Positions 20,243-47,645 of a stretch of DNA of 64,000 bases are shown piece by piece (position 1 is the stretch's first letter; each line of letters starts with the position of its first letter). This stretch comes from Clostridium sp. M62/1 (GTDB taxonomy: Bacteria > Bacillota > Clostridia > Lachnospirales > Lachnospiraceae). Below the pieces are notes generated by a model. That model had not been told where the DNA came from. It saw nothing but the letters and a program-made list of their open reading frames with translations, and did not search any database. Both the position numbers and the translations under genes were made by a program. The stretch covers positions 2,610,001-2,674,000 of the forward strand of contig NZ_CP085988.1 in the NCBI RefSeq assembly GCF_020736365.1, written 5' to 3'.

Positions 20243-20297
20243 ATTCTCTCCGAGGGAGGTGCACTCGCCGCAGTTGTGTTTTGGCTCCCTTCGGGCG
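20243..20297. repeat. Dispersed hairpin repeat, copy 2
   Basis: Same ordered blocks as copy 1 (TTCTCTCCG, CACTCGCCGCAG, TTTGGCTCCCTTCGG). In this copy CCGAGGGAG can pair with CTCCCTTCGG with one bulge. It sits just upstream of the promoter at 20321. Confidence 0.75.
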
Positions 20298-20320
20298 CCG
20301 GCGGCGAATGACGATCACAA

Positions 20321-26599: not shown

Positions 26600-26728
26600 A
26601 GAATCCTGCCCCGCAGGATTCTCCGCCTGCGGCGGATCCCATCAGCGGCATGTTCTTTTCCGCCGCAGTGCGATCCTCGCGGAGCGTTTTTGTTTCATAG
26701 GAATGCAGTTTCCTATGAAATAAAAAAA
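26600..26728. repeat. Palindromic dispersed element, copy A
   Basis: First of three same-orientation copies (others at 33193 and 47470). It starts with hairpin AGAATCCTG/CAGGATTCT, continues with CCGCCTGCGGCGG, a variable loop and CCGCCGCAGTGCGATC, then CGCGGAGCG. It ends with a long palindrome, TTTCATAGGAA facing TTTCCTATGAAA. The right end runs directly into the T tract of the ileS T-box terminator. The terminal palindrome differs in sequence from copies B and C but keeps the same shape. Confidence 0.9.
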
Positions 26729-27039
26729 CCTTCGTCCTGTAAAAGGACGAAGGCATACACTTACCTCGTTTAACCACCTGTTACTGCATACTTCATATGC
26801 GCTCCCTCTAACGGCGGACACCGGCTCAGCTTAATGAGATGGGAAAACGCAGCTTCCTTCACTGAAATTCTGCCCTTCTCTTCTGTTCAGCCTGCAACTC
26901 AGGAGTGATCTTCACGCCTTCCTACTTGCGGCGGGCTCACACCGTCCCCGCCTCGCTGCGCCTTTCGGCAAAGCACTACTGTCTCCGTCACAGTTTTTAT
27001 GGTCTGATTGTTGTTCCAGTATACATCTGACAGTATACC
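26722..27039 (-). promoter_or_regulatory. T-box leader of ileS, isoleucine specifier
   Basis: The minus-strand leader shows the stem I block GGAGACAGTA near its start, the distal AGCGAGGCGGGGACGG...GAGCCCGCC arm, and the specifier loop GTGAAGATCACTCC with Ile codon ATC at 26907-26909. The antiterminator T-box variant ACAGGTGGTTAAACGAGG is at 26764-26781. A terminator hairpin CCTTCGTCCT/AGGACGAAGG (26729-26753) is followed by seven T residues. ACGAGG can pair with the terminator's CCTTCGT arm, giving the usual alternative structures. Uncharged tRNA-Ile should favour read-through into ileS. Confidence 0.93.
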
Positions 27040-29833: not shown

Positions 29834-31434
29834 GCCTGCCTCTCCTCCTGGGTAAGCTGACGCCTCAGCATGTTCGGCGAAACTCCCTCATATTTTTTAA
29901 AGCAGTAGCTGAAATAGTGCTGGTCATTGTAGCCGCAGGCCTCCGACACCTCGCGGATTTTCATTGCCGTATTTAAGAGCAGGATTTTGGCCGTCTCCAT
30001 CCTCTTTTTTGTCAGATAATCCACAAAGCTGTTTCCCGTACGCTTCTTTATCAGGGCGCTTAAATAATTGGGGCTCACGCCAATCTCCGTGCTGGCTGAC
30101 ATTAAAGACAGGTCTGCGTTAGAATAATTATCCTCAATATAGCGAATCGCCCTGTCGCATATATCCATGCTGCTCTTCGTCTTATGCTCAGCGATCCGAT
30201 CCCTGGCCGCCATGCAGAAATGAACAAAATGTTCTGAAGCATCCTTCAGGGAGCTGTCGAGAAAGGCCATCTGCTGCATAAACGGATCTGCCTTCAGAGC
30301 CGCTGCATCGGATTCGGCTGACATGGAATACATGATCCGGCAGACGCAGGACAGAATTTCCACCAGCATAAAGTTGACCTTTTCCCTGGAATTGTTCTCG
30401 TCCTTCAGGCAGCCGAACACCTCCCACAGATAGCTTTCCAGCTCCTCCCTGGCTCCTCCCCTTATCTTCTCTTCGATGTTTGCTACCACCTTCATCACAT
30501 AGTCCATGTCCACGCCGGAAAACGGCTCCTCATCTATAATGTACCTGACTCCGCCCTGGCCGCTTCTGCCTGCATAGCGCATGGCATTGACCGCATCCCT
30601 GTAGGCCTCAGACAGATCCGTAAAACCCTGGACTACACGGCTGGCGCCCAGGCTGCATCTCAGATTCAGAATACGGGCAGAGCTCTGGACGATGTCGTCT
30701 GCCAGAATGTGCAGATACTTGTCAAAGGATGCCGGTGTGCTCCACAGCACGGATACAATCTTGTCCTCCAGAAAAAAGCTCTCATATTTGATATATTTTT
30801 TCAAAATGGTATCTACTGCATGAACATGGCTGTGCTCTGTGCAGTTGTTTCCATTTTCGTCGCGAAAAGTAACTGCCGTCACCAGATACCGGATACTCTC
30901 GCTCTCCGGCTTTATCATGCCGCAGGCCTGTGCCTGAGCTTTCAGCAACTGCTCCCTCTCCGGCGTGCTGGCCATCTGAAAGCTGTCTAACAGAAGTGGA
31001 AGAAGAAATTCCGAAATATTGATCTCATTTTTTCTGCGCTCGGCAAACTCGGAGAACAGCCGGTCGATCTTCTGCTTAATCTGAATGAGATTTTCTGTCA
31101 AATCCGCCATGGAGATCGGCTTGAGCATGTAGCTGATAATATTGTACTGAATCGCCTGCTGGGCATAAGAGAAATCGTCAAAACCGCTGAGGAATGCGAT
31201 CTGTGTAGCTGGACGGATCTCTCTGACCTGCCTGGCCAGCTCCACGCCGGAAATAAACGGCATCCGTATATCCGTGAGAAGAAGATCCGGCTCCTTCTCC
31301 CCCACCAGCTCCAGGGCTTCAATCCCGTTTTCAGCCTCTCCCACCACCTGAAATCCAATTTCCTCCCAGTTAATCCTGCGGATAATGGCTCTCCTCAATT
31401 CCTCCTCATCATCTGCAACTACTACTGTATACAT
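29830..31434 (-). CDS. YesN-type response regulator with AraC DNA-binding domain
   Basis: The 534-residue protein has a receiver domain with phospho-acceptor D55 (LLLTDIRMPFISG) and a long central region of about 300 residues. A C-terminal AraC/XylS double helix-turn-helix occupies roughly residues 430-530, with LMSASTEIGVSPNYLSALIKK and EVSEACGYNDQHYFSYCFKK. Its length and layout are those of YesN regulators that control carbohydrate-uptake operons. The ATG at 31434 gives the canonical MYTVVVADDE start; a further in-frame ATG at 31470 would add 12 residues. It is the first gene of the regulator-kinase-binding protein operon. The target operon is not adjacent. Confidence 0.93.
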   Translation of the reverse strand: MYTVVVADDEEELRRAIIRRINWEEIGFQVVGEAENGIEALELVGEKEPDLLLTDIRMPFISGVELARQVREIRPATQIAFLSGFDDFSYAQQAIQYNIISYMLKPISMADLTENLIQIKQKIDRLFSEFAERRKNEINISEFLLPLLLDSFQMASTPEREQLLKAQAQACGMIKPESESIRYLVTAVTFRDENGNNCTEHSHVHAVDTILKKYIKYESFFLEDKIVSVLWSTPASFDKYLHILADDIVQSSARILNLRCSLGASRVVQGFTDLSEAYRDAVNAMRYAGRSGQGGVRYIIDEEPFSGVDMDYVMKVVANIEEKIRGGAREELESYLWEVFGCLKDENNSREKVNFMLVEILSCVCRIMYSMSAESDAAALKADPFMQQMAFLDSSLKDASEHFVHFCMAARDRIAEHKTKSSMDICDRAIRYIEDNYSNADLSLMSASTEIGVSPNYLSALIKKRTGNSFVDYLTKKRMETAKILLLNTAMKIREVSEACGYNDQHYFSYCFKKYEGVSPNMLRRQLTQEERQA

Positions 31435-31634
31435 AAATCCCTGTGCCCTCCGTTGATTTTCTCTTTGCATTTTCCTGTTATTTTATCACAAAAGGCGGGG
31501 GATGTATAGAAAAATACCTGGAGCCGGCAAATAAGGAGAGCGGAGGCAGTGGAAGAAGGGCAAGCGTTCTGAGACTGACAAAGCCGCGTCTGCCTCTCTT
31601 CTTTTCTGTTTTGTTATTTTTTTGTCAATTCATT

Positions 31635-31662
31635 TTGCATTTTTTACATTTTATGATATACT
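31635..31662 (+). promoter_or_regulatory. Putative promoter of pncB
   Basis: TTGCAT (31635-31640), a 16-base spacer and TATACT (31657-31662), 50 bases before the ATG. Confidence 0.65.
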
Positions 31663-31712
31663 TTTACGCAATTAACACATACTATTCTACAAATTTTTAC
31701 AAGGAGAACGCT

Positions 31713-33173
31713 ATGGAGCCACGAAACCTTACTTTATTGACAGACCTGTACGAGCTTACCATGATGCAGGGCTATTTTCACGAGAAGGATGCCAACGAGA
31801 TGGTCATCTTTGACGCCTTCTACAGAAATAATCCCGACGGAAACGGATTTTCCATCTGTGCGGGACTGGAGCAGGTGATCGAATATATAAAAAATCTCCA
31901 CTTTGAAAAGGAGGATGTGGACTACCTCAGAAGCACAGGCCTGTTCACGGAGGATTTTCTTGACTATCTGCGCAACTTTAAGTTTACAGGGGATATTTAT
32001 GCCATCCCGGAGGGAACCGTGATCTTTCCCAGGGAGCCCCTTATCAAGGTAATCGCGCCGATTATGCAGGCCCAGCTTGTGGAAACGGCTATCCTGAATA
32101 TTGTAAACCACCAGAGCCTGATCGCCACCAAGACTTCCCGCATCATCCATGCAGCCCGCGGGGACGGCATCATGGAATTTGGACTGCGCCGCGCCCAGGG
32201 GCCGGATGCCGGAATTTACGGAGCCAGAGCTGCCATGATTGCCGGCTGCATCGGAACCTCCAACGTGCTGGCCGGACAGATGTTTGACGTTCCGGTGAAG
32301 GGAACTCACGCTCACAGCTGGATCATGAGCTTCCCGGATGAGCTGACCGCCTTCCGCACCTACGCCAAGCTCTACCCCTCCGCCTGCATCCTCTTAGTCG
32401 ACACCTACGATACGCTGAATTCCGGCGTGCCCAATGCGATCCGCGTGTTTACGGAGATGAGGGAGGCCGGCATTCCGTTAAAGGGATACGGCATCCGTCT
32501 GGACAGCGGCGATCTGGCCTATCTGTCCAAAAAGGCCAAGGCCATGCTGGACGCAGCAGGCTTTACCGATGCGATTATCTCCGCCTCCAATGATCTGGAC
32601 GAGTATCTCATTGACAGCCTGAAAATGCAGGGAGCCACCATCAACTCCTGGGGCGTCGGGACAAACCTGATTACCTCCAAGGACTGCCCTTCCTTCGGTG
32701 GCGTCTACAAGCTGGCTGCTATCAGAGACAGAGACACCGGAAAGTTTATACCGAAGATCAAACTGTCGGAGAATACGGAGAAGGTGACAAATCCCGGCAA
32801 TAAGACAATCTACCGCATCTACGGAAAGAACGACGGCAAGATAATCGCCGACCTGATCTGTCTGGCAGATGAGGTTTACGACGAAAACAAGTCCCTGCTG
32901 CTGTTTGATCCCATCGAGACCTGGAAAAAGACCCACCTGGCTCCGGGCACCTATACGATGCGCGAGCTGCTTGTTCCTGTCTTCCAGTCCGGCGAATGCG
33001 TGTACCATTCACCGAAGGTCATGGAGATCCGCGATTACTGTCAGAGAGAGCTGAATACTCTCTGGGATGAGTCCAGACGTCTGATCAATCCTCATGAGGT
33101 TCATGTGGATCTGTCCAATGAGCTGTGGCACATGAAAAACCAGCTCCTTGACAGCTATCACTATAATGACTGA
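31713..33173 (+). CDS. pncB: Nicotinate phosphoribosyltransferase
   Basis: The 486-residue enzyme joins nicotinate and PRPP to nicotinate mononucleotide, the entry step of the Preiss-Handler NAD salvage pathway. Conserved stretches are LTDLYELTMMQGYF at the N-terminus, FGLRRAQGPDAGIYGARAA near residue 155, GTHAHSWIMSF near residue 195 and RLDSGDLAYLSKKA near residue 265. The ATG at 31713 is preceded by AAGGAG (31701-31706); the open frame extends upstream past the promoter and is not used. The gene is monocistronic, with palindromic element copy B and a strong terminator after it. Confidence 0.95.
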   Translation: MEPRNLTLLTDLYELTMMQGYFHEKDANEMVIFDAFYRNNPDGNGFSICAGLEQVIEYIKNLHFEKEDVDYLRSTGLFTEDFLDYLRNFKFTGDIYAIPEGTVIFPREPLIKVIAPIMQAQLVETAILNIVNHQSLIATKTSRIIHAARGDGIMEFGLRRAQGPDAGIYGARAAMIAGCIGTSNVLAGQMFDVPVKGTHAHSWIMSFPDELTAFRTYAKLYPSACILLVDTYDTLNSGVPNAIRVFTEMREAGIPLKGYGIRLDSGDLAYLSKKAKAMLDAAGFTDAIISASNDLDEYLIDSLKMQGATINSWGVGTNLITSKDCPSFGGVYKLAAIRDRDTGKFIPKIKLSENTEKVTNPGNKTIYRIYGKNDGKIIADLICLADEVYDENKSLLLFDPIETWKKTHLAPGTYTMRELLVPVFQSGECVYHSPKVMEIRDYCQRELNTLWDESRRLINPHEVHVDLSNELWHMKNQLLDSYHYND

Positions 33174-33192
33174 TCAGCAAGCCGTATAAAAT

Positions 33193-33324
33193 AGAATCCT
33201 GCTTCGCAGGATTCTCCGCCTGCGGCGGGTCGCGAAAGCGACATTTTCTTTTCCGCCGCAGTGCGATCCCCGCGGAGCGTTTTTATATAACAGGGAACGA
33301 AGTTTCCTGTTATATAAAAACGCT
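33193..33324. repeat. Palindromic dispersed element, copy B
   Basis: The best-preserved copy. It opens with AGAATCCTGCTTCGCAGGAT and CCGCCTGCGGCGG, then a small variable hairpin GTCGC/GCGAC, then CCGCCGCAGTGCGATCCC. It ends in a perfect 19-bp inverted repeat, AGCGTTTTTATATAACAGG facing CCTGTTATATAAAAACGCT. The right end is three bases from the terminator stem at 33327. Confidence 0.92.
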
Positions 33325-33326
33325 GC

Positions 33327-33376
33327 AAAAGAGGCCGGATGCCCTCATTTTCCCCCGGGCATCCGGCCTCTTTTTT
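33327..33376. terminator. Bidirectional terminator between pncB and GH25 gene
   Basis: AAAAGAGGCCGGATGCCC (33327-33344) pairs perfectly with GGGCATCCGGCCTCTTTT (33357-33374), followed by T residues on the plus strand and TTTT within the arm on the minus strand. Confidence 0.92.
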
Positions 33377-33433
33377 GAAGCAGTTTCGCCTCCCGTCTTC
33401 AGGTATCGGCCAAAACCACTTCCTTTTTCTGTT

Positions 33434-34351
33434 TTAGAGCATGGCTCCGCTGGCGTCAAACTGGTACATCTGCCCGTCAATCTCCTTCCAGCAGTCAGAT
33501 ACCATTCTGCCTCCATCCTCCGGATCGAGATAATACCAGACTCCGTTTGCCTGCACCCATCCGTCAGTCTTTGCATAATCCTTAAAATAGTACCAGCTTC
33601 CGTCAATTTTCTTAAAGCCCTCCGGCGAAATCACCTGGCTGTAGTCGGTAAATGCCAGCTCCAGACATACGGGGCCTTCAATCCCGTCTACTGTCCCGCT
33701 GTCCGTACACTGCCAGATGGTGCGGTTCGGATACGTATTGACAGTTCCGTATCTGGCATACCAGATATCATAGGGAATCTGGCTCGTATCCATCTTATTG
33801 ACCAGCCAGTCATTATAGCCAAATACCACCGGATGGTAGCCGGCCTCCTCCACAGTCCGGCAGAAAGCGTTGACTATATCTGTCAGTTCCTGCCTGGAAA
33901 GGCCGGAGATATAGGCAGATTCCACATCCATGGCGATCGGATAGGATACCCTGTAGTCTTTTGCCGTCCGGACCGCAAACTGAGCCTCCTTCACTGCCCG
34001 GTCCACATCCAGGGCCTGGGAGTAGAGATACACTCCTGTCTGGATTCCGGATGCCGCCGCCTCCCTCATATTGGCGTCAAAGGTCGGATCCAGGCTGTCC
34101 AGATACCCCATGCGGATCATGGCAAAGCTCACATCATCTGCGGCAGCGGCTGCCCAGTCAATCTCTCCCTGATACTTTGAAACGCTGACTCCGCGGAAAA
34201 GTGCTCCCTCCACAGCGGTTCCCTCAGCATTTACATACTGGCCGTTTTCCTTCTCAAAGGCCGCCGCCTGGACTGTCACCGGCGCTGACGCACAAAAGAC
34301 TGCCGCGGAAACGGCCGCCCACAGGGTGCGCATTCTCTTTCTGTACTGCAT
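33434..34351 (-). CDS. Secreted GH25 lysozyme-like protein with cell-wall-binding repeats
   Basis: The 305-residue protein has a signal peptide (residues 1-30, ending VQAAA), a GH25 muramidase domain (about 50-235) and three C-terminal aromatic cell-wall-binding repeats (GSWYYFKD, GVWYYLDPEDG, GQMYQFDASG). GH25 enzymes cut the MurNAc-GlcNAc bond of peptidoglycan. The catalytic DxE pair is present as D142-V-E144 in YPIAMDVES. The first conserved Asp, usually in GIDVSxxQG, is Ser56 here (RGVSVSKYQG), so activity may be altered. The ATG at 34351 follows a GAGAGGAGAGG site. A promoter lies at 34428-34455. Confidence 0.9.
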   Translation of the reverse strand: MQYRKRMRTLWAAVSAAVFCASAPVTVQAAAFEKENGQYVNAEGTAVEGALFRGVSVSKYQGEIDWAAAAADDVSFAMIRMGYLDSLDPTFDANMREAAASGIQTGVYLYSQALDVDRAVKEAQFAVRTAKDYRVSYPIAMDVESAYISGLSRQELTDIVNAFCRTVEEAGYHPVVFGYNDWLVNKMDTSQIPYDIWYARYGTVNTYPNRTIWQCTDSGTVDGIEGPVCLELAFTDYSQVISPEGFKKIDGSWYYFKDYAKTDGWVQANGVWYYLDPEDGGRMVSDCWKEIDGQMYQFDASGAML

Positions 34352-34427
34352 CTTTTCCTCTCCTCTCATCTGCCTTCCCCCAGGCAAAAAGCCTGTGTCC
34401 GGCTGCTTTTCAGACTGTTCTCATCTA

Positions 34428-34455
34428 AGTATAGCACATGCACTTGCGGAATCAA
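34428..34455 (-). promoter_or_regulatory. Putative promoter of the GH25 gene
   Basis: On the minus strand TTGATT (34450-34455), a 16-base spacer and TATACT (34428-34433), about 75 bases before the ATG. Confidence 0.6.
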
Positions 34456-34546
34456 TTCCCGTCTTTTTACAATTTTCTTACTTTTTTGCTGTTTTCAACA
34501 AGAGGCTTCCTCGTTTCGCCCTTTACTTCTATTGTTCTGTTTCAGC

Positions 34547-35836
34547 TCATTTCTCCTGCTGTTCCCACTGTTCTCTCCTCTGGAGGCTGTAGATCGACTG
34601 TCCCCCATTGAACAGCCGCGCTGCCGCACAGACAATGAAAAAGCAGGGAAGCAGCTCACAGCCAAAGACCTCTGCCCCGATGAATACCGGAGCCAGAAAG
34701 GTATTGGTAGCTCCGCCGAAGACAGCGGCATATCCCAGAGCCGCCAAAAGCGGAAGCGGCAGGGGGAGGATAAGGGAAAGAGCGGCTCCCAGGCTGGCTC
34801 CGATGGAAAACAGAGGGGTGACCTCTCCTCCCTGAAAGCCTGCTGCAATCGTAACTGCAGTAAAGAAAAATTTCAGTATCCAGTCGAACACCTTCACATC
34901 CTCTCCGCTCAGGCTTCCCTCGATCAGGTTTGTCCCAAGCCCGCAGTAGCGTCCGCCGTAAAATAAGAGAAGCAGAATGCTGAGTCCCGCGCTGCAGACC
35001 GCAATCCGCACAACAGGGTTTTTCACCGCTTCCCCCAGCCCTTTCTTAAGTCTCCCCAGCGTCCAGGCAAAGGCGCCCCCTACTGTGCCGAAAATCAGCC
35101 CTGCCCCGAGAAGCAGAAACACGGTGGAAAGGGAAAGGCCGCCGCCGTTAAGGCTCTCCACCGGAAAGGCAAACTTTTCAAGTCCCAGAGCGCCAGACAC
35201 TGTGCTGGCAGTAAACGAGGCTGTCAGCGCCGGAACAAGGGCCCTGCATTCCAGCCTGCCGGCCCACAGCACCTCGGCAGCAAAGAGGACGGCTGCGAGA
35301 GGTGTTCTGAACAGCCCTGCAAATCCGGCAGCCATCCCTGTTACCAGAAATATCCGCGAGCTGTTTTTAAAGGGAAGACGGCCAAACATCCCATGAGATA
35401 CGGCAGCTCCTATCTGTACCGCCACTCCCTCCCGCCCGGCACTTCCTCCGAACAGATGGGTGAGCCAGGTGCTCCCCGTCACAAGGGGGATCAGCCGCAG
35501 CGGAATCTCCTTCTCCGTCCCGAATCCCACCTCAAATGCAAGCCCCATGCCCCTGGCGCATTTTTCTCCAAAGGTTCTGTAGAGATATACGCTCAGCACG
35601 CCCGCCAGGGCAAGAAGCGGAATGAGAATGGTCCCGTATTCCATCCTGCAGGCTGTAACTGCCAGCAGAACGCGGCCAAACAGAGCGTCCAGAGCCCCTG
35701 TGACTGCTCCCACCGGGATTCCGAGCACAGCCGTCAGAATCAGAACAGCCATATCCCTTATCCCCCGATCCTTTGCCTCCTTCGCCTCTTCTTGGCCTGC
35801 CTTTGTCTCCTCTTCCTGCGCTCTCTTCCCGCTCAT
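34547..35836 (-). CDS. ClC-family anion transporter, probably fluoride-type
   Basis: The 429-residue membrane protein is a ClC channel/antiporter homologue. The gating glutamate region is FGGSAGREGVAVQIGAAVS near residue 130, the third motif is GFQGGEVTPLFSIGASLG near residue 340, and MAAGFAGLFRTPLAAVLFAAEV follows the second helix region. The canonical GSGIP chloride-binding motif is replaced by a GMG sequence (CARGMGLAFEVG). Together with GREGV and GGEVTPLF, this resembles the CLC-F fluoride/proton antiporters rather than chloride transporters; this is a motif-based inference. No fluoride riboswitch is seen upstream. The ATG at 35836 follows GGGAGG. The yebC terminator separates it from yebC. 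Confidence 0.88.
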   Translation of the reverse strand: MSGKRAQEEETKAGQEEAKEAKDRGIRDMAVLILTAVLGIPVGAVTGALDALFGRVLLAVTACRMEYGTILIPLLALAGVLSVYLYRTFGEKCARGMGLAFEVGFGTEKEIPLRLIPLVTGSTWLTHLFGGSAGREGVAVQIGAAVSHGMFGRLPFKNSSRIFLVTGMAAGFAGLFRTPLAAVLFAAEVLWAGRLECRALVPALTASFTASTVSGALGLEKFAFPVESLNGGGLSLSTVFLLLGAGLIFGTVGGAFAWTLGRLKKGLGEAVKNPVVRIAVCSAGLSILLLLFYGGRYCGLGTNLIEGSLSGEDVKVFDWILKFFFTAVTIAAGFQGGEVTPLFSIGASLGAALSLILPLPLPLLAALGYAAVFGGATNTFLAPVFIGAEVFGCELLPCFFIVCAAARLFNGGQSIYSLQRREQWEQQEK

Positions 35837-35930
35837 TTGTTCCTCCCGTCTGCCGCCCTTCTGCCTGCATTTTTTATGGCCTGTATTTTATCTCTTTGCG
35901 GCGTGTATTTTATCTCCTGCACCGTCACAC

Positions 35931-35975
35931 AAAAAGCTGCGGCAAAGTGGGAAATCCTCTTCCCTTTGCCGCAGC
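35931..35975 (-). terminator. Terminator downstream of yebC
   Basis: GCTGCGGCAAA (35936-35946) pairs perfectly with TTTGCCGCAGC (35965-35975), with an inner GGGAA/TTCCC. On the minus strand it is followed by TTTTT. Confidence 0.85.
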
Positions 35976-36090
35976 CTGATTTCTTCCGTCTTCTCCGCCC
36001 CTGCTTTGACAGCCGGGGTCTCTTCTCCGCCCTCCGGCGCTTTCACAGAGTTCTGATGCAGCCCTCTGCAGGGGACACCGGCAGTCCGCC

Positions 36091-36819
36091 TTACTCGTCC
36101 CAGTTGTGGTAGGTCGCCTGCACATCGTCATCTGCATCCAAGAGATCCAGCAGACGGTTCATCTTCTTGATGGACTCCTCGTCAGTCAGCTCCACCCATG
36201 TCTGAGGAATCATGGTGACCTCAGCCTCCATCATGGGGATTCCCTTTGCCTCGAGAGCTTCCCTGACTGCGCTGAAATCATCCGGATCCGTCACGATCTC
36301 GTAGCTGTCCGCCTCCTCTGCGAAGTCCTCCGCTCCTGCGTCGAGAGCCTCCATCATCAGAGTGTCGGCATCCATGTCGCACTCTTCCTTGTCAATGATA
36401 ATCTGTCCCTTCTTGTCAAACATAAAGGAAACGCTGCCCTGTGCGCCGATGTTTCCGCCGCCCTTTGTGAAGGCGCTTCTCACATTGGCTGCTGTACGGT
36501 TCTTGTTGTCAGTCAGAGCTGTGACAATAATTGCCACTCCGTTCGGGCCATATCCCTCATATGTAAGCTCCTCATAGTTGACAGAGTTCGCATCGCCGGC
36601 AGCCTTCTTGATTCCTCTCTCGATCGTGTCGTTCGGCATATTGTTGGCCTTCGCCTTGGCAATGACATCGCGCAGACGGCTGTTGTTGGCCGGATCAGCT
36701 CCGCCTTCCTTTACAGCAACCGCAATCTCACGCCCGATAACGGTAAAGATTTTTCCCTTCGCCGCATCGTTCTTCTCTTTCTTGTGCTTAATATTGGCGA
36801 ACTTTGAATGTCCAGACAT
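36091..36819 (-). CDS. YebC/PmpR family regulatory protein
   Basis: The 242-residue protein is a full-length YebC (TACO1-like) family member, beginning [23 protein letters not shown] as the family does (shown here as its first parts [14 protein letters not shown] and NDAAKG). Other landmarks are [15 protein letters not shown] near residue 58 and [19 protein letters not shown] near residue 85. The acidic C-terminal domain ends [15 protein letters not shown]. Members were described as DNA-binding regulators; more recent work links the family to translation of difficult motifs such as proline stretches. The ATG at 36819 is preceded by an AAGAGGAG site. It stands alone with a terminator downstream. 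Confidence 0.95.
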
Positions 36820-36986
36820 AATAACACTCCTCTTTTTATGAATTCTTTCCGTGACAATACATATTACTTTTCATCTGCCAGTGCGGTCCGGACAGGCCGC
36901 AGCAGCACAGAATTTTGCTCACAATCTTTTTTATTTTATCACTAAAATCAGGCCTTGACAAGCCGCAATCTCAAAAAACTGCCTCC

Positions 36987-38366
36987 CTATAAGGGAAGGT
37001 CCGCCCCCGGTTCCGGCTTTTCCCTCAGTCCGTTTTCCCCTTCGGGAATCACCGCTACAGAATGGATCACCTTGTTTTCCACAGAGATAGTCTGGAACAG
37101 ATAGCCCCCGTAATGCACCTGCGGGGTTTCGCCCTCTCTGGGAACCCGGTTCAGACGGGAGATCAGAAAGCCGTTCAGGGTATCGAAATTTTCGCTGTCC
37201 TCCCCGTCAAAGGCAAGGCCCAGCTCCTTTGACACATCCTCCAGAGGCGTCAGGCCGTCAAAAACGAAGCTGCCGTCCTCTCTCCTGGAAATCATCTCCT
37301 CATCCTCGTCGTACTCGTCCAGAATGTTTCCCACGATCTCCTCCAGAATGTCCTCCATCGTGACAATCCCGGCTGTCTGCCCATACTCATCCACCACAAT
37401 TTCCATATGAATTTTCTGGGACTGCATCTCCTTAAACAGCGGATTTATATTTCGTGTTTCCGGGATGAAATGGGCTGTCCGCAGAAGTCCCTCTACCTGG
37501 TCAATCTGCTTTCCCCTGTTTTCCTGGCTCTGGGCACAGGCCACGGCATCCCTCAGATGAAGGATTCCCCTGATGTCATCAATATCCTCCCCGTAGACAG
37601 GAAAGCGGGAATTGATTCCCTCCCTCAGAATAAAATCCACTGCCTCGCCCAGAGTCATGGAAGCGGGAAGCGCCGCCACATTTCTGCGCCTTGTCATAAT
37701 ATCTCCGGCCTGCTTGTCCCCCAGCTCCACAATGTTCGTGATCATCTCCGCCTCATCGGCTTCCAGGACGCCCTGCTCATGCCCTTCATTGACCATGAGC
37801 ATAATATCCTCCTCTGTCACATTGTCGCTTTTATCGTGCAGCCCGACTCCCATAGGGTACAGAATCAGCCACGAAAGGCCTGAGACCAGCCCGGCAAATG
37901 GCTTAAAAATCAGCACAGCCAGCCCGGCTGCCCTCAGAAAGCGGTATGCCCACTTTTCCGGTTTCCGGCTGGCCAGACGCTTTGGAATGACAATTCCAAG
38001 GCTGATGAGCACAGCCAGAAGCACAACCGCTGCCGCCGCCGTCGCAAGGGCTGTCCAGGGTTCCTCCATCCTGAGTCCCGTTTTATGTATCATTGTTTCC
38101 AGAAAAGCGCCGGCTTGTCTAAGAATCACTGCTCCTGAAATCAGTCCTATCAGGTTCGTCACAATCTGAACTGTGTTCACAAACTCTGCCGGGCGCTCCA
38201 GCACGGCCAGAAGTCTTTCAGCCTTCTTATTGCCCTCCCCGGCCTCCTTTTCCAGCGTTCCTGAATTCAGATGCTGAATCGCCGCTCCAAATCCATAAAG
38301 CATCCCGTCCATCAGAATAAAGCCCAGAAAAATCAAAATACTCAGGGGCCAGTTCCCATCGTCCAT
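36987..38366 (-). CDS. Hemolysin-family CNNM/CBS/CorC membrane protein
   Basis: The 459-residue protein has the order CNNM transmembrane domain (residues 1-190, about four hydrophobic segments), a CBS pair (DIMTRRRNVAALPASMTLGE onward, about 205-330) and a C-terminal CorC_HlyC domain (about 345-435). Bacterial homologues include YtfL, YhdP/MpfA and CorC; several are implicated in Mg2+ efflux or homeostasis, and the hemolysin label is historical. IVTMEDILEEIVGNILDEYD in the second CBS motif is strongly typical. The start codon at 38366 is ATG. No transport partner is adjacent. Confidence 0.93.
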   Translation of the reverse strand: MDDGNWPLSILIFLGFILMDGMLYGFGAAIQHLNSGTLEKEAGEGNKKAERLLAVLERPAEFVNTVQIVTNLIGLISGAVILRQAGAFLETMIHKTGLRMEEPWTALATAAAAVVLLAVLISLGIVIPKRLASRKPEKWAYRFLRAAGLAVLIFKPFAGLVSGLSWLILYPMGVGLHDKSDNVTEEDIMLMVNEGHEQGVLEADEAEMITNIVELGDKQAGDIMTRRRNVAALPASMTLGEAVDFILREGINSRFPVYGEDIDDIRGILHLRDAVACAQSQENRGKQIDQVEGLLRTAHFIPETRNINPLFKEMQSQKIHMEIVVDEYGQTAGIVTMEDILEEIVGNILDEYDEDEEMISRREDGSFVFDGLTPLEDVSKELGLAFDGEDSENFDTLNGFLISRLNRVPREGETPQVHYGGYLFQTISVENKVIHSVAVIPEGENGLREKPEPGADLPL

Positions 38367-38630
38367 AGCTCTTAATCCTCTCCTTTGTTATTATCCTTCT
38401 GCCCATTCTTCCCTGGCGTTTTCTCCTTCGCATGAACAGGCAAAAGGCAGAATTTAAGCTCCTCTGCCCCCTCCCTGCGTGTCTGCAGTCCTGTAAAGCC
38501 CGGGCAGAAGAATGGCTTTCTGCCTCATTCTGCCAATATACACCTGCAGCCCCAGCCCGTCAACTGTATTCCTCAGTCTTTCATTGCGGCCTGGCTGTCG
38601 TTTCTTACAGAGCTCTCCGGATACATGCGC

Positions 38631-38978
38631 CTATGTATTCAGCTCAAGGCTGACCATCAGCGCCCGGTTCACCCTCTCCAGCAGTTCGTCATCAATATGG
38701 CAGATCCTCTCTCTGAGTCTCTGCTTGTCGATGGTTCTGAGCTGTTCCAAAAGAATTACAGAGTCTTTCACCATATCACAGCGTCTGGTGTTTAGCTCTA
38801 CATGCGTCGGCAGCTTCGCCTTATTCATCTTTGAAGTTATTGCCGCGCAGATCACCGTAGGGCTGTGCTTGTTTCCTACATCATTCTGTATGATCAGAAC
38901 CGGCCTCACGCCTCCCTGCTCGGAGCCAACCACCGGCCTCAGATCCGCATAATAGATATCGCCTCTTCTTATAATCAA
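38631..38978 (-). CDS. mazF: MazF/PemK-type toxin endoribonuclease
   Basis: The 115-residue protein is a MazF (NdoA/EndoA) sequence-specific mRNA interferase: [20 protein letters not shown] at the N-terminus, [12 protein letters not shown], then [18 protein letters not shown], and the [12 protein letters not shown] helix. I choose TTG at 38978 because GGAGA lies eight bases upstream and the resulting [10 protein letters not shown] start matches clostridial homologues. A GTG three codons upstream (38987) overlaps that site and is less likely. alr is upstream on the same strand, as in Bacillus alr-ndoAI-ndoA, but no recognisable MazE-type antitoxin gene intervenes; only a 32-codon frame is present. 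Confidence 0.93.
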
Positions 38979-38983
38979 ATAAC

Positions 38984-39082
38984 TCACTCTCCGTCATTCC
39001 AGTTTATACCCTTAGTATTACCCTTTTTTTGGCGGGTATTCACATATCTGCGGAAAGATTGTTTCCTCTCCCTATCTATCAT
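38984..39082 (-). CDS. Possible 32-residue leader or antitoxin-like peptide upstream of mazF
   Basis: An ATG-started frame of 32 codons ends with a TGA five bases before the mazF TTG (and overlaps the alternative GTG as GTGA). The peptide is strongly basic at first ([20 protein letters not shown]) and ends INWNDGE. It fits exactly where a mazE-type antitoxin gene would be expected, but it is far shorter than known antitoxins (about 75-95 residues). Only a weak AAAGAG site precedes it. It could be a remnant, a translational-coupling leader or chance. Confidence 0.3.
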
Positions 39083-39119
39083 ATGGCTCTTTGGCGTCCT
39101 CTGTTCCTGGCTTTCTGCG

Positions 39120-40379
39120 TCAGTCCTCTCTTTTCTCTTCCGTGGGGCCTCCCCTATCCAAGGCGGCCTCTGCTTTTTTATCGTCCCTCACATAGATGCG
39201 GGGAACTCTTTTTCCAATCAGGCATGGGATCTCATAGTGAAAGCCCCCGCACTGTGCGGCCAGCTCCTCCATGGTGATCTCCTCTTTCCCGTCCCGGCCC
39301 ACGAGTGTGACGGTGTCCCACTTTTCTGCCTCCGGAATTTCGGTCACATCAGCCATAAACTGATCCATACAGATGCGGCCCAGAATCTTCGCCCTCTTTC
39401 CGCGGATCAGAACCTCTCCCCGGCCCGACAGGCCTCTCGGGTAGCCGTCCCCGTAGCCTGCGCAGACAGTGGCAACCCGCATGGGGCGCCGGGCCACAAA
39501 GGTCCCGCCGTAGCTCACAGCCGTCCCCGGCTCAATCTCCTTGATATAGGTGATATAGCTTTTAAGCTCCATGGCAGGAAGCAGGCGGATCCTGTTTCTG
39601 TCCACCTCACCGGAGGGATAGAGGCCGTATATACAGATTCCCGCGCGCACGGCATCCATCTCCATTCCCTCCGGCATCCTGTGAGAATCAATAATTCCCG
39701 CGCTGTTCATGCAGTGGCAGATCAGTTTTTTCCTCCCCTGCTCTTTCTTCGTCAAAAGCTCCGAAACCTGAGCCGCGAAGTTGCGGAAATCCTCAAACTG
39801 CCGCTTCGTCACCGCCTTGTCTTCCTCGTCCGCTCTCGGAAAGTGCGTAAACAGCCCCTCGATAAAAAGTCCCGGAAGGCTGCTGATCCGGTCGATCATC
39901 TCCAGGGATTCCTCCGACGGCTTCAGGCCGATCCGGCTCATTCCCGCATCTACTGCCAGATGCACGCTGCCCCTGATTCCAGCCTCCCCGGCCAGCTTGG
40001 AAAAGGCCTCTGCCGTCTCCTCCTCGAAAATCACCGGCCGCACGTCCGCCGCCAGAAGCTCTCTGAACCGGCTGTCCCTGACGCTTCCCAGCACCAGGAC
40101 AGGCAGGGATACACCGCTTTTTCTAAGCTCCAGAGCCTCGTCTGCCGTAGCCACCGCATATCCCGACACATAGGGCTCAATGGCCGCCGCTGTCTCCGCC
40201 GCCCCGTGACCATAGCCGTCCGCCTTGACTACTCCGATCACCGCTGTCCCTTCCGGAAGCCCTGCCGCTATTTCCTTCATATTCTGCTCAATCCGATCCA
40301 GATGGATCAGCGCACAGATCCGGTCGCTTCCGCCTTCCTCCGGTCTGTTTTCCCGGATCTTCATATTTTCAGTTTTCAC
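39120..40379 (-). CDS. alr: Alanine racemase
   Basis: The 419-residue PLP enzyme interconverts L- and D-alanine for peptidoglycan synthesis. The PLP lysine lies in GVVKADGYGHGA near residue 53. The catalytic tyrosine of the second domain is in AVSYGGTFVA near residue 290, and the C-terminal block CMDQFMADVT is present. The start is GTG at 40379 with AGAGGGG nearby; an ATG five codons downstream is possible. It has an N-terminal extension of about 20 residues before the domain. It lies between nnr and mazF on one strand. The nnr-alr gap of 133 bases could hold a promoter. Confidence 0.96.
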   Translation of the reverse strand: MKTENMKIRENRPEEGGSDRICALIHLDRIEQNMKEIAAGLPEGTAVIGVVKADGYGHGAAETAAAIEPYVSGYAVATADEALELRKSGVSLPVLVLGSVRDSRFRELLAADVRPVIFEEETAEAFSKLAGEAGIRGSVHLAVDAGMSRIGLKPSEESLEMIDRISSLPGLFIEGLFTHFPRADEEDKAVTKRQFEDFRNFAAQVSELLTKKEQGRKKLICHCMNSAGIIDSHRMPEGMEMDAVRAGICIYGLYPSGEVDRNRIRLLPAMELKSYITYIKEIEPGTAVSYGGTFVARRPMRVATVCAGYGDGYPRGLSGRGEVLIRGKRAKILGRICMDQFMADVTEIPEAEKWDTVTLVGRDGKEEITMEELAAQCGGFHYEIPCLIGKRVPRIYVRDDKKAEAALDRGGPTEEKRED

Positions 40380-40512
40380 TTTTGTCCCCTCTTTCCAGCT
40401 GTCATCTCCATTGGCCCCGGCCCTGCATCTGACGGCACGGGGCCTGTCTCTTTTCTGCAGATATTCTGCAGCACACCTCCCGTCAGCTCAGGCAGCCTGC
40501 AGTCTCCAAAGC

Positions 40513-42051
40513 TCACTGCTCCCTTTTTCTTTTCTCCGGCTCCGACACCCTCATCAGACAGTCTGCCAGATTCTCCGCCAGCACGCTGTGCATGCCATAT
40601 TCCGCTGCAGCAGCCTCTCCTGCCAGCCCGTGAAGGTAAACGCCCAGGGGCGCCGCCTCCCCTTCCTCCATTCCCATGGCAATCAGTCCGGCCAGCACCC
40701 CTGTCAGCACATCCCCGGAACCGGCCTTGGCCATAGCTGAACAGCCGCTTTTATTAATATAGACCGGCTCATCTTTTTTGACCACCACGGTGGCCGCATC
40801 CTTCAGAACCGTTATCACCCCATACTTTTCGCTGTAGGAAACGGCGGTCTCCACCAGATGTTCCCTCACCTCATCGATCTCCATCCCTGTCAGACGGGCC
40901 ATCTCCCCCACATGAGGCGTGACAATGACATTCTCTGTAAAGTATTCCGACAGCGACGGATTCTCAGCCACAATGTTCAGTCCGTCAGCATCCAGCACAA
41001 TCGGAACGAAGGCGGAAAGCAGAATCTGCTGCACCAGCCGCACTGCCCAGGGCTCTCTTCCAAGACCCGGCCCCAGAACCACAGCGTCCGCCCAGCCGCA
41101 CTCCCGCTCAATCTGAAGGGCGAAGCTCTCCGGCTCCTCCATGGCCTCCTCCCTGTCGTAGGCAGACAGAATCGCTTCCGGCAGAAGTGTCTGCAGAATC
41201 TGGCAGTTCTCCCTGGGCGTCAGAATCTTTACAAGTCCGGCCCCTGTGCGGTAAGCGGCAAGGGCGCTCAGATAGGCGGCTCCTCCCATTCCCGGCGAAC
41301 CTGCGGCAATCAGGACACGCCCATAGGTCCCCTTGTTGGAATAGGCGCGCCTTGCCGGAACCTTCTTAAGGTCCTCCCTGTCAAAGGTAACGAATCTGGT
41401 TTCCCCAAGGCAGACGTCCGGGCAGGGAGGAAATCCAATATCCTTCACGGCCACCCTTCCGCAGTAATCCCTTCCCGGAAACAGAACAAGTCCCAGCTTT
41501 TCAAACCCAAAGGTTACTGTCAAATCTGCTCTCACAGCCCGGCCCATCACTCTTCCCGTGTCGGAATGAATTCCTGACGGAATATCCACTGCCACCGTAA
41601 GGCGCGGCGCCATCCCGCAGATCATCTCTATGACATTCCGGTACGGCCCCTCCACATTTCTGGAAAGTCCCACTCCAAACAGCGCGTCCACTGCTACCTC
41701 GTAGCTGCCTGGGATGAAATCCTCTGCCTCCATGACGGAAATTCCGATCCTCTCATCGATGGCAAGCTGCAGTTTCAGCTCCTCTGTCCGGCTCTCCTGC
41801 CTTCCGGCCGTCAGAACTGTCACATTGTACCCCCTCAGAAAAAGCATACGGGCGATGGCCGCCCCGTCTGCTCCGTTATTCCCCGTTCCGCAGGCCACAA
41901 AAATCCGATCCTCCCTGAAAAGTTCAGGCTCCATCTCCTCAACCACAGAGAGAGCCGCACGCTCCATTAAAACAAGGGACGGGATTCCCACTGTCTCAAT
42001 GGCGTGCCTGTCAATCTCTTTCATCTGAGCACCTGTCACCAGCCTCTTCAT
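40513..42051 (-). CDS. nnr: Bifunctional NAD(P)H-hydrate repair enzyme (epimerase/dehydratase)
   Basis: The 512-residue protein fuses a YjeF_N epimerase domain (residues 1-210) to an ADP-dependent NAD(P)H-hydrate dehydratase of the ribokinase-like fold (about 225-505). The epimerase shows VACGTGNNGADGAAIARML near residue 58. The kinase-like part shows AGSPGMGGAAYLSALAAYRTG, VLGPGLGR and AKAGSGDVLTGVLAGL. Together they repair hydrated NAD(P)H. The ATG at 42051 has AAGGAGGAGC upstream; an earlier start at 42075 has no site. acpS is 29 bases upstream, giving a rex-acpS-nnr unit, a combination seen in many clostridia. Confidence 0.95.
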   Translation of the reverse strand: MKRLVTGAQMKEIDRHAIETVGIPSLVLMERAALSVVEEMEPELFREDRIFVACGTGNNGADGAAIARMLFLRGYNVTVLTAGRQESRTEELKLQLAIDERIGISVMEAEDFIPGSYEVAVDALFGVGLSRNVEGPYRNVIEMICGMAPRLTVAVDIPSGIHSDTGRVMGRAVRADLTVTFGFEKLGLVLFPGRDYCGRVAVKDIGFPPCPDVCLGETRFVTFDREDLKKVPARRAYSNKGTYGRVLIAAGSPGMGGAAYLSALAAYRTGAGLVKILTPRENCQILQTLLPEAILSAYDREEAMEEPESFALQIERECGWADAVVLGPGLGREPWAVRLVQQILLSAFVPIVLDADGLNIVAENPSLSEYFTENVIVTPHVGEMARLTGMEIDEVREHLVETAVSYSEKYGVITVLKDAATVVVKKDEPVYINKSGCSAMAKAGSGDVLTGVLAGLIAMGMEEGEAAPLGVYLHGLAGEAAAAEYGMHSVLAENLADCLMRVSEPEKRKREQ

Positions 42052-42080
42052 GCTGCTCCTCCTTCTCCACGGCATTCATT

Positions 42081-42461
42081 CTATTCTGCCGTTTTTTTCT
42101 CTGCCCCCTCGCCCACGGCAAAGGCTACGGCGTAATCCTTCGTATTGGTAATCGATACATGGATTTCTTTTATGGAAAGCCTGTCCGCCAGCTCCCTGGC
42201 CCCTCCATAGAGCCTTACATACGGCTTTCCGAGGCTGTCCCTGAGCACCTCGATCTCCGCCGGTCCAAAGCTCCTGAACCCGGTGGCGAGCACCTTGGCC
42301 ACTGCCTCCTTAACGGCAAAAGTGCCGGCTAACCGGGCATAATTTCCCCCGGCCTGCTGGCACTCTTCCTGCGTGTATACACGCGTCAGGAAGGCCTCCT
42401 TCTCACAGGCCCTCCTGATACGTCCTATTTCAATCATGTCTGTCCCAACACCTGCTATCAT
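42081..42461 (-). CDS. acpS: Holo-[acyl-carrier-protein] synthase
   Basis: The 126-residue enzyme transfers 4'-phosphopantetheine from CoA to ACP. The N-terminal IAGVGTDMIEIGRIRRA contains the metal-binding Asp, and the second signature is AGTFAVKEAVAKVLATGF with the catalytic Glu/Lys near residue 55. The length is typical of trimeric AcpS. Its ATG at 42461 overlaps the rex stop codon by four bases (ATGA), so translation is coupled to rex. A longer frame reaching 42521 lies inside rex and is not used. Confidence 0.96.
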   Translation of the reverse strand: MIAGVGTDMIEIGRIRRACEKEAFLTRVYTQEECQQAGGNYARLAGTFAVKEAVAKVLATGFRSFGPAEIEVLRDSLGKPYVRLYGGARELADRLSIKEIHVSITNTKDYAVAFAVGEGAEKKTAE

Positions 42462-43135
42462 TTCCCGTCTTTCCCTCTCGCGAAATTCTTTTCCCTTTCC
42501 TTCTGATCCTGCATCCTGCATACACGGTAAGACAGGCGCATCAGGCTTTCTGACAGGTGAACATTTTCCACCACCACGTCATCGGGAACAGCCAGATCTG
42601 TGTGGGTAAAATTCCAGATTGCCTTAATTCCGGCTTTTACCAGGCGGTCGGCAATCTCAGCCGCCTTTGACTTCGGGATCGTAAGGACGGCAATCTGAAC
42701 ATCGTTATCTGCAATAAACTGCTCCAGATCCTCAATGCCGCGGATTTCCACTCCGCGCACCACCAGCCCCACCAGTCTCGGGTTCACATCAAACATTCCC
42801 TTAATCAGGAAACCACGGCGTTCAAAGTTGGTATAATTGGCAATCGCCTGTCCCAGATTTCCCGCTCCGATGATAATCAGGTTGTGCTGCCTGTCAATCC
42901 CAAGGATTCTGGCGATTTCTGAATAGAGATACTTTACATTATAGCCATACCCCTGCTGTCCGAATCCTCCGAAATTGTTAAGATCCTGACGAATCTGGGA
43001 GGCAGTTACCTTCATCCTCACGCTCAGCTCGTTTGAAGAAATCCGCTCCACTCCCTCTTCCAGCAATTCACCTAAATATCTGTAATACCTCGGCAGCCTT
43101 GAGATCACTGCCTTGGAAATCTGTTTCTGTTCCAC
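42458..43135 (-). CDS. rex: Redox-sensing transcriptional repressor Rex
   Basis: The 225-residue protein has an N-terminal winged helix (ISKAVISRLPRYYRYLGELLEEG, cited as KAVISRLPRYYRYL) and SSNELSVRMKVTASQIRQDL. The Rossmann NAD(H)-binding domain carries IIIGAGNLGQAIANY near residue 88. Rex represses fermentative and respiratory genes when the NADH/NAD ratio is low. The C-terminal 15 residues are charged. It starts the rex-acpS-nnr unit and has a near-consensus sigma-A promoter at 43217-43244. I see no clear TTGTTAANNNNTTAACAA Rex site at its own promoter. Confidence 0.96.
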   Translation of the reverse strand: MEQKQISKAVISRLPRYYRYLGELLEEGVERISSNELSVRMKVTASQIRQDLNNFGGFGQQGYGYNVKYLYSEIARILGIDRQHNLIIIGAGNLGQAIANYTNFERRGFLIKGMFDVNPRLVGLVVRGVEIRGIEDLEQFIADNDVQIAVLTIPKSKAAEIADRLVKAGIKAIWNFTHTDLAVPDDVVVENVHLSESLMRLSYRVCRMQDQKEREKNFARGKDGK

Positions 43136-43216
43136 GGCTTTTCTTCACCTTCCTTTTCTCAGACACGCCGCTTTTATTCCATATTCGTCATTTTCCAGAA
43201 AGCGGCATTATCTACT

Positions 43217-43244
43217 ATTATATCATATGATAAATTATTGTCAA
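43217..43244 (-). promoter_or_regulatory. Sigma-A promoter of rex
   Basis: On the minus strand perfect TTGACA (43239-43244), a 16-base spacer and perfect TATAAT (43217-43222), 82 bases upstream of the rex ATG. Confidence 0.88.
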
Positions 43245-43317
43245 ATAAAACAGGGGATTTTCGTGCTTTCTGCCGGAAATTTTTCTGCCGGCCTCTGTCT
43301 CTTTCCCCTCCAGCTTC

Positions 43318-43346
43318 TTGCAAAACTTTCCTTCTTATATTATACT
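43318..43346 (+). promoter_or_regulatory. Sigma-A promoter of the ABC-F gene, with about 180-base leader
   Basis: TTGCAA (43318-43323), a 17-base spacer and TATACT (43341-43346). The leader (43353-43531) contains a CCTCAG/CTGAGG hairpin and a 9-codon ATG frame without a ribosome binding site. Leader attenuation is common for ABC-F genes but is not shown here. Confidence 0.65.
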
Positions 43347-43531
43347 TGTCACAGATTTTGCAGCCGCATACCGTATGCCTCTGCTGTCCCGGTCCTCTCT
43401 CTAGGAACACCTGGACGCCGGCCGCTTCCTGCGCTGTGAGACAGGCCCTCAGACTTTTTCGGGCAGGTTTCCTGAGGCATCCATCTGCGCTGCTTAACAG
43501 CAATACTATTTACTACATCAGGAGGCAGGAC

Positions 43532-45601: not shown

Positions 45602-45660
45602 TTTTCAGCTTTATAACCGGAGGAACTTTTATCTTTGAGTCTGCAGCTGCCCCTCAGCTA

Positions 45661-45720
45661 AGCGGATACCGCCGGCATGATCTCCCGGAAGGGAGAATTG
45701 CCGGCGGTATCCGCTGTTTC
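45661..45720 (+). terminator. Terminator after the ABC-F gene
   Basis: AGCGGATACCGCCGGCA (45661-45677) pairs perfectly with TGCCGGCGGTATCCGCT (45699-45715), with an inner TCTCCC/GGGAGA hairpin. TTTCTTTTA follows. Confidence 0.9.
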
Positions 45721-45745
45721 TTTTACTTTTATTTATTTCTTTTAT

Positions 45746-46858: not shown

Positions 46859-47346
46859 GGCCTTCCCTCCTTTAATCCTTTTTTCAGACGTTCCAGCGAT
46901 GAGTACAGCCTGTACTTGACTGTATTCAGATTCGCATCTGTGATCTCTGCAATCTGCTTTAAGGTCAGTTCCTCGTAGTAGTGAAGAACTACCACTGTTC
47001 TTCCCGGCTCCGGCAGTTTTTTTACCGCTTCATAGACCTCTCTCTCCCGATCGTAGGCCGGCTCCGTATAGGGCCGGTCGAACACGCCGCCGTCCGTGGA
47101 AGGCAATTCCCGTTTTCTGTCCCTCAGAAGCTGAAGAGATTCATTCACTACGATCCTGTAAAACCATGTTTTCAGCGCATCTGTGCTCCTCAGGGTTTCA
47201 CACTTTTCAAGCCCCTTCAGAATCGCGTTCTGCACCACATCAAGCGCCGCCTCTCTGTCACCCACATAGCTGTACGCCAGTCTGTAAAACCGGTTCTGGT
47301 TTTCCAGAATGTAGGCAACTGTACTGTCATATATGCTCTGTCCCAT
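46855..47346 (-). CDS. ECF sigma factor, SigV-like
   Basis: The 163-residue protein is a group 4 (ECF) RNA polymerase sigma factor. The sigma2 region is FYRLAYSYVGDREAALDVVQ with NAILKGLEKCETL and KTWFYRIVVNESL. The sigma4 helix-turn-helix is LPEPGRTVVVLHYYEELTLK followed by IAEITDANLNTVKYRLYSSL. It is translationally coupled to the RsiV-like gene, so the pair resembles the SigV-RsiV lysozyme response. An AACTTTTTAAC sequence on the minus strand near 47430-47440 is a possible ECF-type -35 element for autoregulation. GAAAGG precedes the ATG at 47346. Confidence 0.93.
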   Translation of the reverse strand: MGQSIYDSTVAYILENQNRFYRLAYSYVGDREAALDVVQNAILKGLEKCETLRSTDALKTWFYRIVVNESLQLLRDRKRELPSTDGGVFDRPYTEPAYDREREVYEAVKKLPEPGRTVVVLHYYEELTLKQIAEITDANLNTVKYRLYSSLERLKKGLKEGRP

Positions 47347-47469
47347 ATTCTCTGCCTTTCCAATTTTATTTTTCCGGCCGCCAATGACCTGCCTGCTCTT
47401 CTCCCTTATTGAATAGATGCAAAAACCCGTTAAAAAGTTGGGAAAACAGGGATTTTTATGATATTAGAA

Positions 47470-47595
47470 AGAATCCTGCTTCGCAGGATTCTCCGCCTGC
47501 GGCGGGGCTGCAAAGCAGCCGTATTCCTTTCCGCCGCAGTGCGATCCCCGCGGAGCGTTTTTATATAACAGGGAACGAAGTTTCCTGGTATATAA
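47470..47595. repeat. Palindromic dispersed element, copy C
   Basis: Same order of blocks as copy B, with the variable hairpin changed to GGCTGC/GCAGCC. The terminal palindrome is slightly degraded (AACAGGGAAC facing TTTCCTGGTATATAA). It lies between the sigma factor promoter region and a hairpin at 47599. Confidence 0.9.
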
Positions 47596-47598
47596 GAA

Positions 47599-47645
47599 GC
47601 CCTCTGCAGAATCAGAACATCTCTCGTTCCCTTTCTGCAGAGGGC
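47599..47645 (-). terminator. Terminator-like hairpin after the choline-binding-repeat gene
   Basis: GCCCTCTGCAGAA (47599-47611) pairs with TTCTGCAGAGGGC (47633-47645). On the minus strand it is followed by TTCTTATATA, which is the right end of element copy C. Confidence 0.65.

Follow-up and report, generated by a model that had tools for sequence, protein, structure and literature searches.

A gene-less palindromic repeat behind intrinsic terminators in Clostridium sp. M62/1 and its relatives: a mobile element proposed to insert as single-stranded DNA

A palindromic block of about 130 bp that contains no gene occurs three times in the stretch of Clostridium sp. M62/1 DNA analysed here (contig NZ_CP085988.1, positions 2,610,001 to 2,674,000; 64,000 nucleotides, hereafter the window), and the question that it raises is what such a sequence is and how it came to be dispersed. 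The reading that we prefer, and to which we give about an even chance, is a gene-less, non-autonomous mobile element of approximately 125–135 bp, inserted as single-stranded DNA and similar in anatomy to IS200/IS605 elements. Present or recent mobility is well supported; the enzyme and the strand chemistry are what we infer.

All three copies lie where the initial annotation had placed them and share one orientation. Of the two readings of the element, R and F, R corresponds to the minus strand in the window. The copies, their parts (hairpins HP1 to HP4) and the adjoining structures are as follows.

26600..26726, minus strand: copy 1 of the element; R reads along the minus strand, the direction that follows the terminator
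26728..26754, minus strand: intrinsic terminator with an 11-pair stem and the tail TTTTTTATTT, its T-tract abutting copy 1
26600..26622, minus strand: HP1 of copy 1, the right-end hairpin, flagged as terminator-like and followed by ATTTT
33193..33320, minus strand: copy 2, the best match in the genome to covariance model R2 (137.1 bits)
33331..33370, minus strand: terminator-like stem-loop adjoining copy 2, folding energy -31.6 kcal/mol (locus L001)
33193..33215, minus strand: HP1 of copy 2, terminator-like, followed by ATTTT
33217..33265, no strand assigned: HP2 with inner hairpin HP2a (GTCGC/GCGAC) of copy 2, from folding and covariation
33271..33279, no strand assigned: HP3 of copy 2, the mini-hairpin CGC-GGA-GCG, which is CCC-GGA-GGG in other genera
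33280..33320, no strand assigned: HP4 of copy 2, the long palindrome at the terminus, whose outer arm as read on the reverse strand is the T-tract target
47470..47598, minus strand: copy 3, of the GGGGCTGC subfamily, HP1 followed by TTCTA
47599..47645, minus strand: terminator-like stem-loop adjoining copy 3, folding energy -25.8 kcal/mol (locus L012)

The stem-loop at 33331..33370 has both an A-tract and a T-tract and is hence usable in both directions, and the one at 47599..47645 was left unflagged by the terminator scan, its loop being longer than the scan permits. A fourth copy (L002) lies 393 bp past the window end. A scan of the window for the 17-mer core TCCGCCGCAGTGCGATC that allowed up to three mismatches found three occurrences, all of them exact, where 0.17 would be expected. 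The hairpins described in the initial annotation are present, with the exception that the inner one pairs in the copies at 33193 and 47470 and fails to do so at 26600 (GGATCCCATCAGCGGC); the terminal palindrome of the 47470 copy carries one mismatch. As RNA, the plus strands of the three copies fold with z scores of -9.0, -11.8, and -7.2 relative to dinucleotide shuffles. Elsewhere in the window, Rfam recognizes a lysine riboswitch (57098–57273, minus strand, 106.5 bits) and two tRNA genes (2854–2927 and 11285–11358, plus strand). The window also holds a second pair of G+C-rich repeats (16735–16790 and 20245–20300; 56 nt, 84% alike), which had no Rfam match at the gathering score, and a short tandem repeat with a 21-nt step (9989–10069) within the reading frame 9794–10162.

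Conservation of the fold was assessed across 37 distinct sequences, in which 87.4% of cells pair. Both sides of the pair have changed in 32 of the 50 pairs, the covarying stems thus extending beyond the three window copies, and there are 181 such doubly changed cells compared with a shuffled mean of 52; none of 500 shuffles reached any of five covariation measures. The covariation score falls from 0.304 to 0.097 or less when the partners are slid, a comparison that favours the actual structure over the slid versions, as it was derived from the same 37 sequences. Doubly changed pairs are found in HP1 (9 of 10) and HP4 (13 of 20), and HP3 varies from CGC-GGA-GCG to CCC-GGA-GGG, its pair 89–95 being GC in 20 sequences and CG in 14. 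HP2 pairs in 65–70%, a value that is probably an underestimate because one class is misaligned. Within 25 copies of the genome itself, double changes affect 10 of the 41 predicted pairs, and nine of these belong to HP4. G-T outnumbers A-C in HP4 (36 to 8 and 30 to 5, with one column being G-T in 23 copies), the other helices having no such bias; as an indicator of the strand that would fold, these counts are not decisive. The compensatory change that had been taken as a sign of selection is real, but in near-perfect palindromes such change can also be produced by template-switch correction, and part of it may have arisen in this way rather than by selection. For HP1 and HP3, which covary across genera, that process would be a less easy explanation.

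The three copies belong to a much larger set. In the 3.92-Mb genome, which comprises two contigs, BLAST with the 33193 copy gave 81 rows, representing 44 places and 37 opposite-strand shadows of the palindrome. Two covariance models were built, R1 from 25 full copies and R2 from 37 copies of many genera, the structure of the latter being named after those sequences had been folded. At an E value of 0.001, R2 returned 105 rows in the genome, which after removal of 31 opposite-strand shadows and two doubtful rows (2067771 and 2878914) leave approximately 72 places, a count that includes the lowest-scoring, only partly inspected matches and in which the strand call is unsafe for copies consisting of HP4 alone. 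Among genomes of the taxonomic family, R1 matches 48 of 120 (41 of the 101 of good quality), and within the genus five of eight; at an E value of 1e-5, R2 matches 25 of 291 genomes of the class, the source genome being included in each of these counts. The expectation of many genomic copies and of relatives in other genomes was thus borne out, and the alternatives originally proposed, a gene-less non-autonomous element or a structured RNA family, draw support from copy number, covariation, and spread. A second subfamily in the genome, with a AGTGTGCGCC hairpin (L112, L113, L116, L043, and L056), is partly fused to the first.

The sequence had not been recognized as a named family, and this holds: in Rfam 15 the window copies match no family above the gathering threshold, and for eight further element loci searched at E values up to 1 the best score was 29.9 bits against a threshold of 88. 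Full-text searches of the open literature, which takes in neither subscription papers nor preprints, listed no title or abstract opening that describes such an element. One plasmid record matched (Roseburia sp. 831b), as did 24 records labelled as phage. A phage link was rejected: the five records fetched, MT835858 among them, are UNVERIFIED scaffolds from human faeces whose frames look chromosomal by eye. In viral_contigs, the HP4 pattern matched one stretch (L362), which contains a whole element, and the core pattern gave no match.

Copies were also compared between genomes. In a sample of 47 chosen elements from four genomes of one genus (27, 7, 6, and 7, tandem pairs included), the nearest neighbour lies in the same genome for 45, compared with a shuffled mean of 17.7 and a maximum of 29. 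On these sequences, the element has amplified separately in each compared genome, and gene conversion could contribute to the same-genome neighbours. Elements from two different genera, L333 (genome G307) and L361 (genome G387), are 98.8% identical, above the identity of either to the L334 type described below; their likeness reflects either horizontal spread or assembly contamination.

Four features not foreseen in the initial annotation concern the way in which the element sits in the genome: its site behind terminators, its orientation with the replication fork, its terminator-like right end, and its exact insertion. The first was scored on the R strand, a site being positive if a hairpin of -8 kcal/mol or better ended at most 3 nt from the T-tract. 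Fifty-two copies were scored and two (L019 and L029) dropped, having no recognizable tract; 44 of the remaining 50 sites are positive, compared with 217 of 874 control TTTTT[AG] sites drawn from 464 kb of this genome (Fisher P 1e-19), an enrichment that is partly an intergenic effect since the controls take in coding DNA. In three of the 44 (L017, L026, and L027) the upstream hairpin is HP1 of a neighbouring copy, and two of the six misses (L010 and L113) have a strong hairpin 5 nt off. The target is, as a rule, the T-tract of an intrinsic terminator, and the T-tract on the left is regarded here as part of that target.

The site upstream of thrS illustrates this rule in several lineages. Eighty thrS relatives were compared together with the loci of this genome (L003) and of genome G104 (L067); the best relative found is the thrS of Clostridium fessum SNUG30386 scaffold_0 (91%), and others come from Blautia, Dorea, and Mediterraneibacter. 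NCBI places C. fessum in Clostridiaceae; the family sampled here is probably the Lachnospiraceae of GTDB, with which the last three genera agree. The element matches upstream of thrS at L003, L067, L231 (Blautia sp. An249), L221 (C. fessum), and L256 (a Dorea MAG), with weaker matches at L248 (42 bits) and the decayed L244 (28 bits). An Rfam T-box leader ends directly before the element in L003, L067, L231, and L256; L221 and L244 have no Rfam T-box above threshold, though a T-box motif is visible there. In many other lineages, among 39 loci, the thrS site lacks the element or holds another sequence. Behind the thrS T-box terminator of L233, L234, and L251 (which include Ruminococcus turbiniformis and Mediterraneibacter) stand different hairpin-rich sequences, perhaps another element family with the same target.

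The right end of the element is its own. On the R strand, TTNTT follows HP1 in 20 of the 27 full copies; all three in the window depart from it (ATTTT, ATTTT, and TTCTA). The third base after HP1 is G in seven of the nine members of the GGGGCTGC subfamily, and the 18 other copies never have G there, so the stretch after HP1 is carried along by the element. Where copies stand in tandem, the next one starts behind this TTNTT-like stretch. HP1 with its tail was scored as terminator-like in two of the three window copies, and by its sequence the far end of the element (HP1 plus TTNTT) resembles a terminator.

How exactly the element inserts can be judged from genome G387, which belongs to another family of the same class. 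It contains, at different sites, four copies of a related element (L334–L337) of the same HP4 type and with a TTCTTG end; they are 97–99% identical and share both ends. The L334 copy splits a small reading frame. When it is cut at TTTTTTTA/CTGTATAGG and at TTCTTG/ACCC and the flanks are joined, the product is DLLTYFFNPLRKKSDEL, which is identical to the matching stretch of P0001, a 77-residue protein from another contig; the overall identity to this protein is 95–97%. Insertion was therefore exact, 3' of TTTTTA, with neither duplication nor loss, as seen at one site through the protein rather than the DNA of a relative and for a related element outside the window's subfamily. L334 has no upstream hairpin (-0.7 kcal/mol), and the five other folded copies (L333, L335–L337, and L361) all have one. 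At the DNA level, no usable empty site was obtained for window positions 30500–49500 within the genus (longer matches 64–81% identical), for L172 in the genus of G102 (68–76%), or for L335 in the genus of G387 (flanks 66–69%). The genus of G387 also contains another dispersed repeat of approximately 95 nt (part 2398–2492 of the L335 query), with tens of matches.

Orientation was compared with the direction of replication. From GC skew in 20 samples plus the window, the origin was placed at approximately 0.3–0.5 Mb and the terminus at 2.27–2.44 Mb of contig C1, the terminus being set at 2.36 Mb. In this genome, where orientation was measured, R points with the fork in 59 of the 62 copies that score at least 45 bits and in 68 of all 72. 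For comparison, 58 of 95 terminator-like sites and approximately 76% of coding residues in the samples point with the fork; the bias has a P value of 7e-10 against the terminator rate and of 0.001 against a rate of 0.8.

The layout proposed for the R strand is a terminator stem and TTTTT(A/G), followed by HP4, HP3, HP2, HP1, the TTNTT-like end, and the flank. R would be the inserted strand and would most likely go in as single-stranded DNA at the lagging-strand template, on which the terminator would fold as a hairpin. The substrate of the enzyme would be a hairpin followed by a T-rich stretch, present both at the right end of the element and at real terminators, and the A-tract of HP4 may pair with the target T-tract as an internal guide. 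In internal tandem copies the preceding TTNTT mismatches this supposed guide, so the pairing cannot be strict. In outline, IS200/IS605 elements operate in the way proposed here. Landing behind terminators would keep the element harmless to its host.

Truncated copies fit this scheme less simply. By inspection, the F 5' side is missing in approximately 21 copies of the genome (L022, L027, L029, L030, L033–L043, L115, L117, L119–L121, and L124) and the 3' side in four (L044, L122, L123, and L131), an asymmetry that a two-ended mechanism does not predict and that selection keeping the terminator could explain. The bias favours reverse transcription, or simply selection protecting the terminator side, and it brings in the first alternative, a SINE-like retroelement that moves through RNA: the RT of a group IIC-type intron would copy the transcript into DNA at the terminator site, priming from the 3' end of the T-tract. 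Copies truncated on the F 5' side with an intact 3' hairpin are typical of incomplete reverse transcription, and insertion without target duplication fits as well. Group IIC introns, as described in PMC10190682, target a DNA stem-loop with single-stranded DNA downstream and exploit lagging strands. We nevertheless regard a retroelement as unlikely. One junction is common to four truncated copies (L034, L037, L117, and L119), and Rfam recognizes no group II intron at eight element loci or anywhere in the window. These four copies have the same upstream stretch at the junction, presumably an rRNA operon leader from its appearance, yet abut different terminators, a pattern that suggests recombination through the element.

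The search for a mobilizing enzyme covered both candidate chemistries, and none was tied to the element. Group II RT occurs in 73 of 120 family genomes (34 of 48 element-bearing and 39 of 72 element-free; Fisher P 0.09) and Y1_Tnp in 69 (32 of 48 and 37 of 72; Fisher P 0.13), so both are slightly commoner with the element, which weakly favours each and is not significant. Eleven group II RT loci, one of which (L217) stands in the Y1 set, gave no HP4 and one weak model match (E 0.19). G008, with six element matches, lacks any RT match, and in G067 and G077, with 17 matches each, the only RT pieces are of 138 and 137 aa; these points count against a retroelement. As to Y1, 31 loci, which are part of the listed Y1 genes and include the two of this genome, gave no HP4 or model match, and G067 and G090, with 17 and 16 reported element matches, have no Y1 match. 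Among frames around 112 element-bearing loci, no recurring mobile gene was seen by eye in the 25 largest clusters.

A second alternative dispenses with mobility: the repeats would be a structured RNA with a regulatory role, or a terminator module present in many copies, retained because it acts at 3' ends and within T-box leaders and dispersed solely by recombination. Covariation in all named helices, the terminator-like HP1, and the recurrence of the same kind of site behind thrS T-boxes of several lineages speak for it. We consider it improbable in view of the lineage-specific amplification and the variable presence at thrS, the near-identical copies at unrelated sites, one of which interrupts a reading frame exactly, and the restriction to only 41 of 101 high-quality family genomes.

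Very improbable, in our judgement, are REP/REPIN sequences of a resident RAYT (TnpAREP), even though the element is palindromic, intergenic, and present in many copies, and though REP movement has been linked to single-stranded DNA (PMC6006769). GT[AG]G occurs 17 times in 37 elements, scattered over both strands, and forms no consistent foot; the two Y1 frames of this genome (159 and 121 aa) are not RAYT-sized, and 18 loci with Y1 frames of 200–310 aa lack the element. A conventional MITE of a DDE transposon would likewise be small, gene-less, intergenic, and multi-copy, and is scarcely credible here, since the two ends have no inverted-repeat relation, the right end is element-encoded, and the inferred empty site has no target duplication.

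The preferred reading, a non-autonomous element inserted as single-stranded DNA, can be extended, more tentatively, to the whole class. Most of the matches outside the family that were read have mainly HP4 in common, with a different body, and a conserved left hairpin (a T-tract, ATAGGAAA, TTTCCTAT, and an A-tract) is linked to bodies that differ from family to family, a combination that would point to a recombinase of unfamiliar type acting on single-stranded DNA or RNA. It is possible, if on balance doubtful, that a superfamily of mobile elements extends across class Clostridia, that it integrates at terminators by virtue of a right end that mimics one, and that its enzyme is a recombinase of this kind. 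If the reading is right, a group of common gut bacteria would carry an extensive and as yet unnamed class of very small mobile elements for which terminators are safe places to land; these would add terminator-like hairpins behind genes and inside T-box leaders and could thereby reshape transcript ends. With a target rule, recent near-identical copies, and an enzyme still to be found, a new recombinase can be sought in a concrete way, and the same rule could serve for placing DNA without damage to genes.

Several known systems invite comparison. BOX and RUP of Streptococcus pneumoniae, set beside the element by description, are also small gene-less intergenic repeats, BOX being modular and RUP a DDE-type MITE with inverted ends. 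A link to IS91, based on what we take to be a likeness of the TTCTTG/TTGTTC ends to IS91 target tetranucleotides, was rejected, as the empty site argues against it. REP, BIME, and REPIN sequences are likewise palindromic and intergenic, and movement as single-stranded DNA has been proposed for them; according to PMC6006769 they measure 21–65 nt and have a GT[AG]G foot and a RAYT gene, and the element has neither a consistent foot of this kind nor a tie to RAYT. Group IIC introns (PMC10190682) share with it insertion next to a DNA stem-loop (44 of 50 sites here) and a lagging-strand link, and differ from it in that the element is approximately 130 bp long, with no RT reading frame and no Rfam group II match. 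The element has not been placed in the IS200/IS605 family, as no Y1 transposase with matching ends was found; its target, a terminator T-tract, its extra covarying internal hairpins, and a right end that imitates a terminator also set it apart. IS200/IS605 elements resemble it in having subterminal hairpins at both ends (here the covarying HP4 and HP1), in inserting exactly on the 3' side of a short target that is not duplicated (here for one related element, by way of a protein), in a right end that resembles the target, and in orientation with the lagging-strand template (here in this genome).
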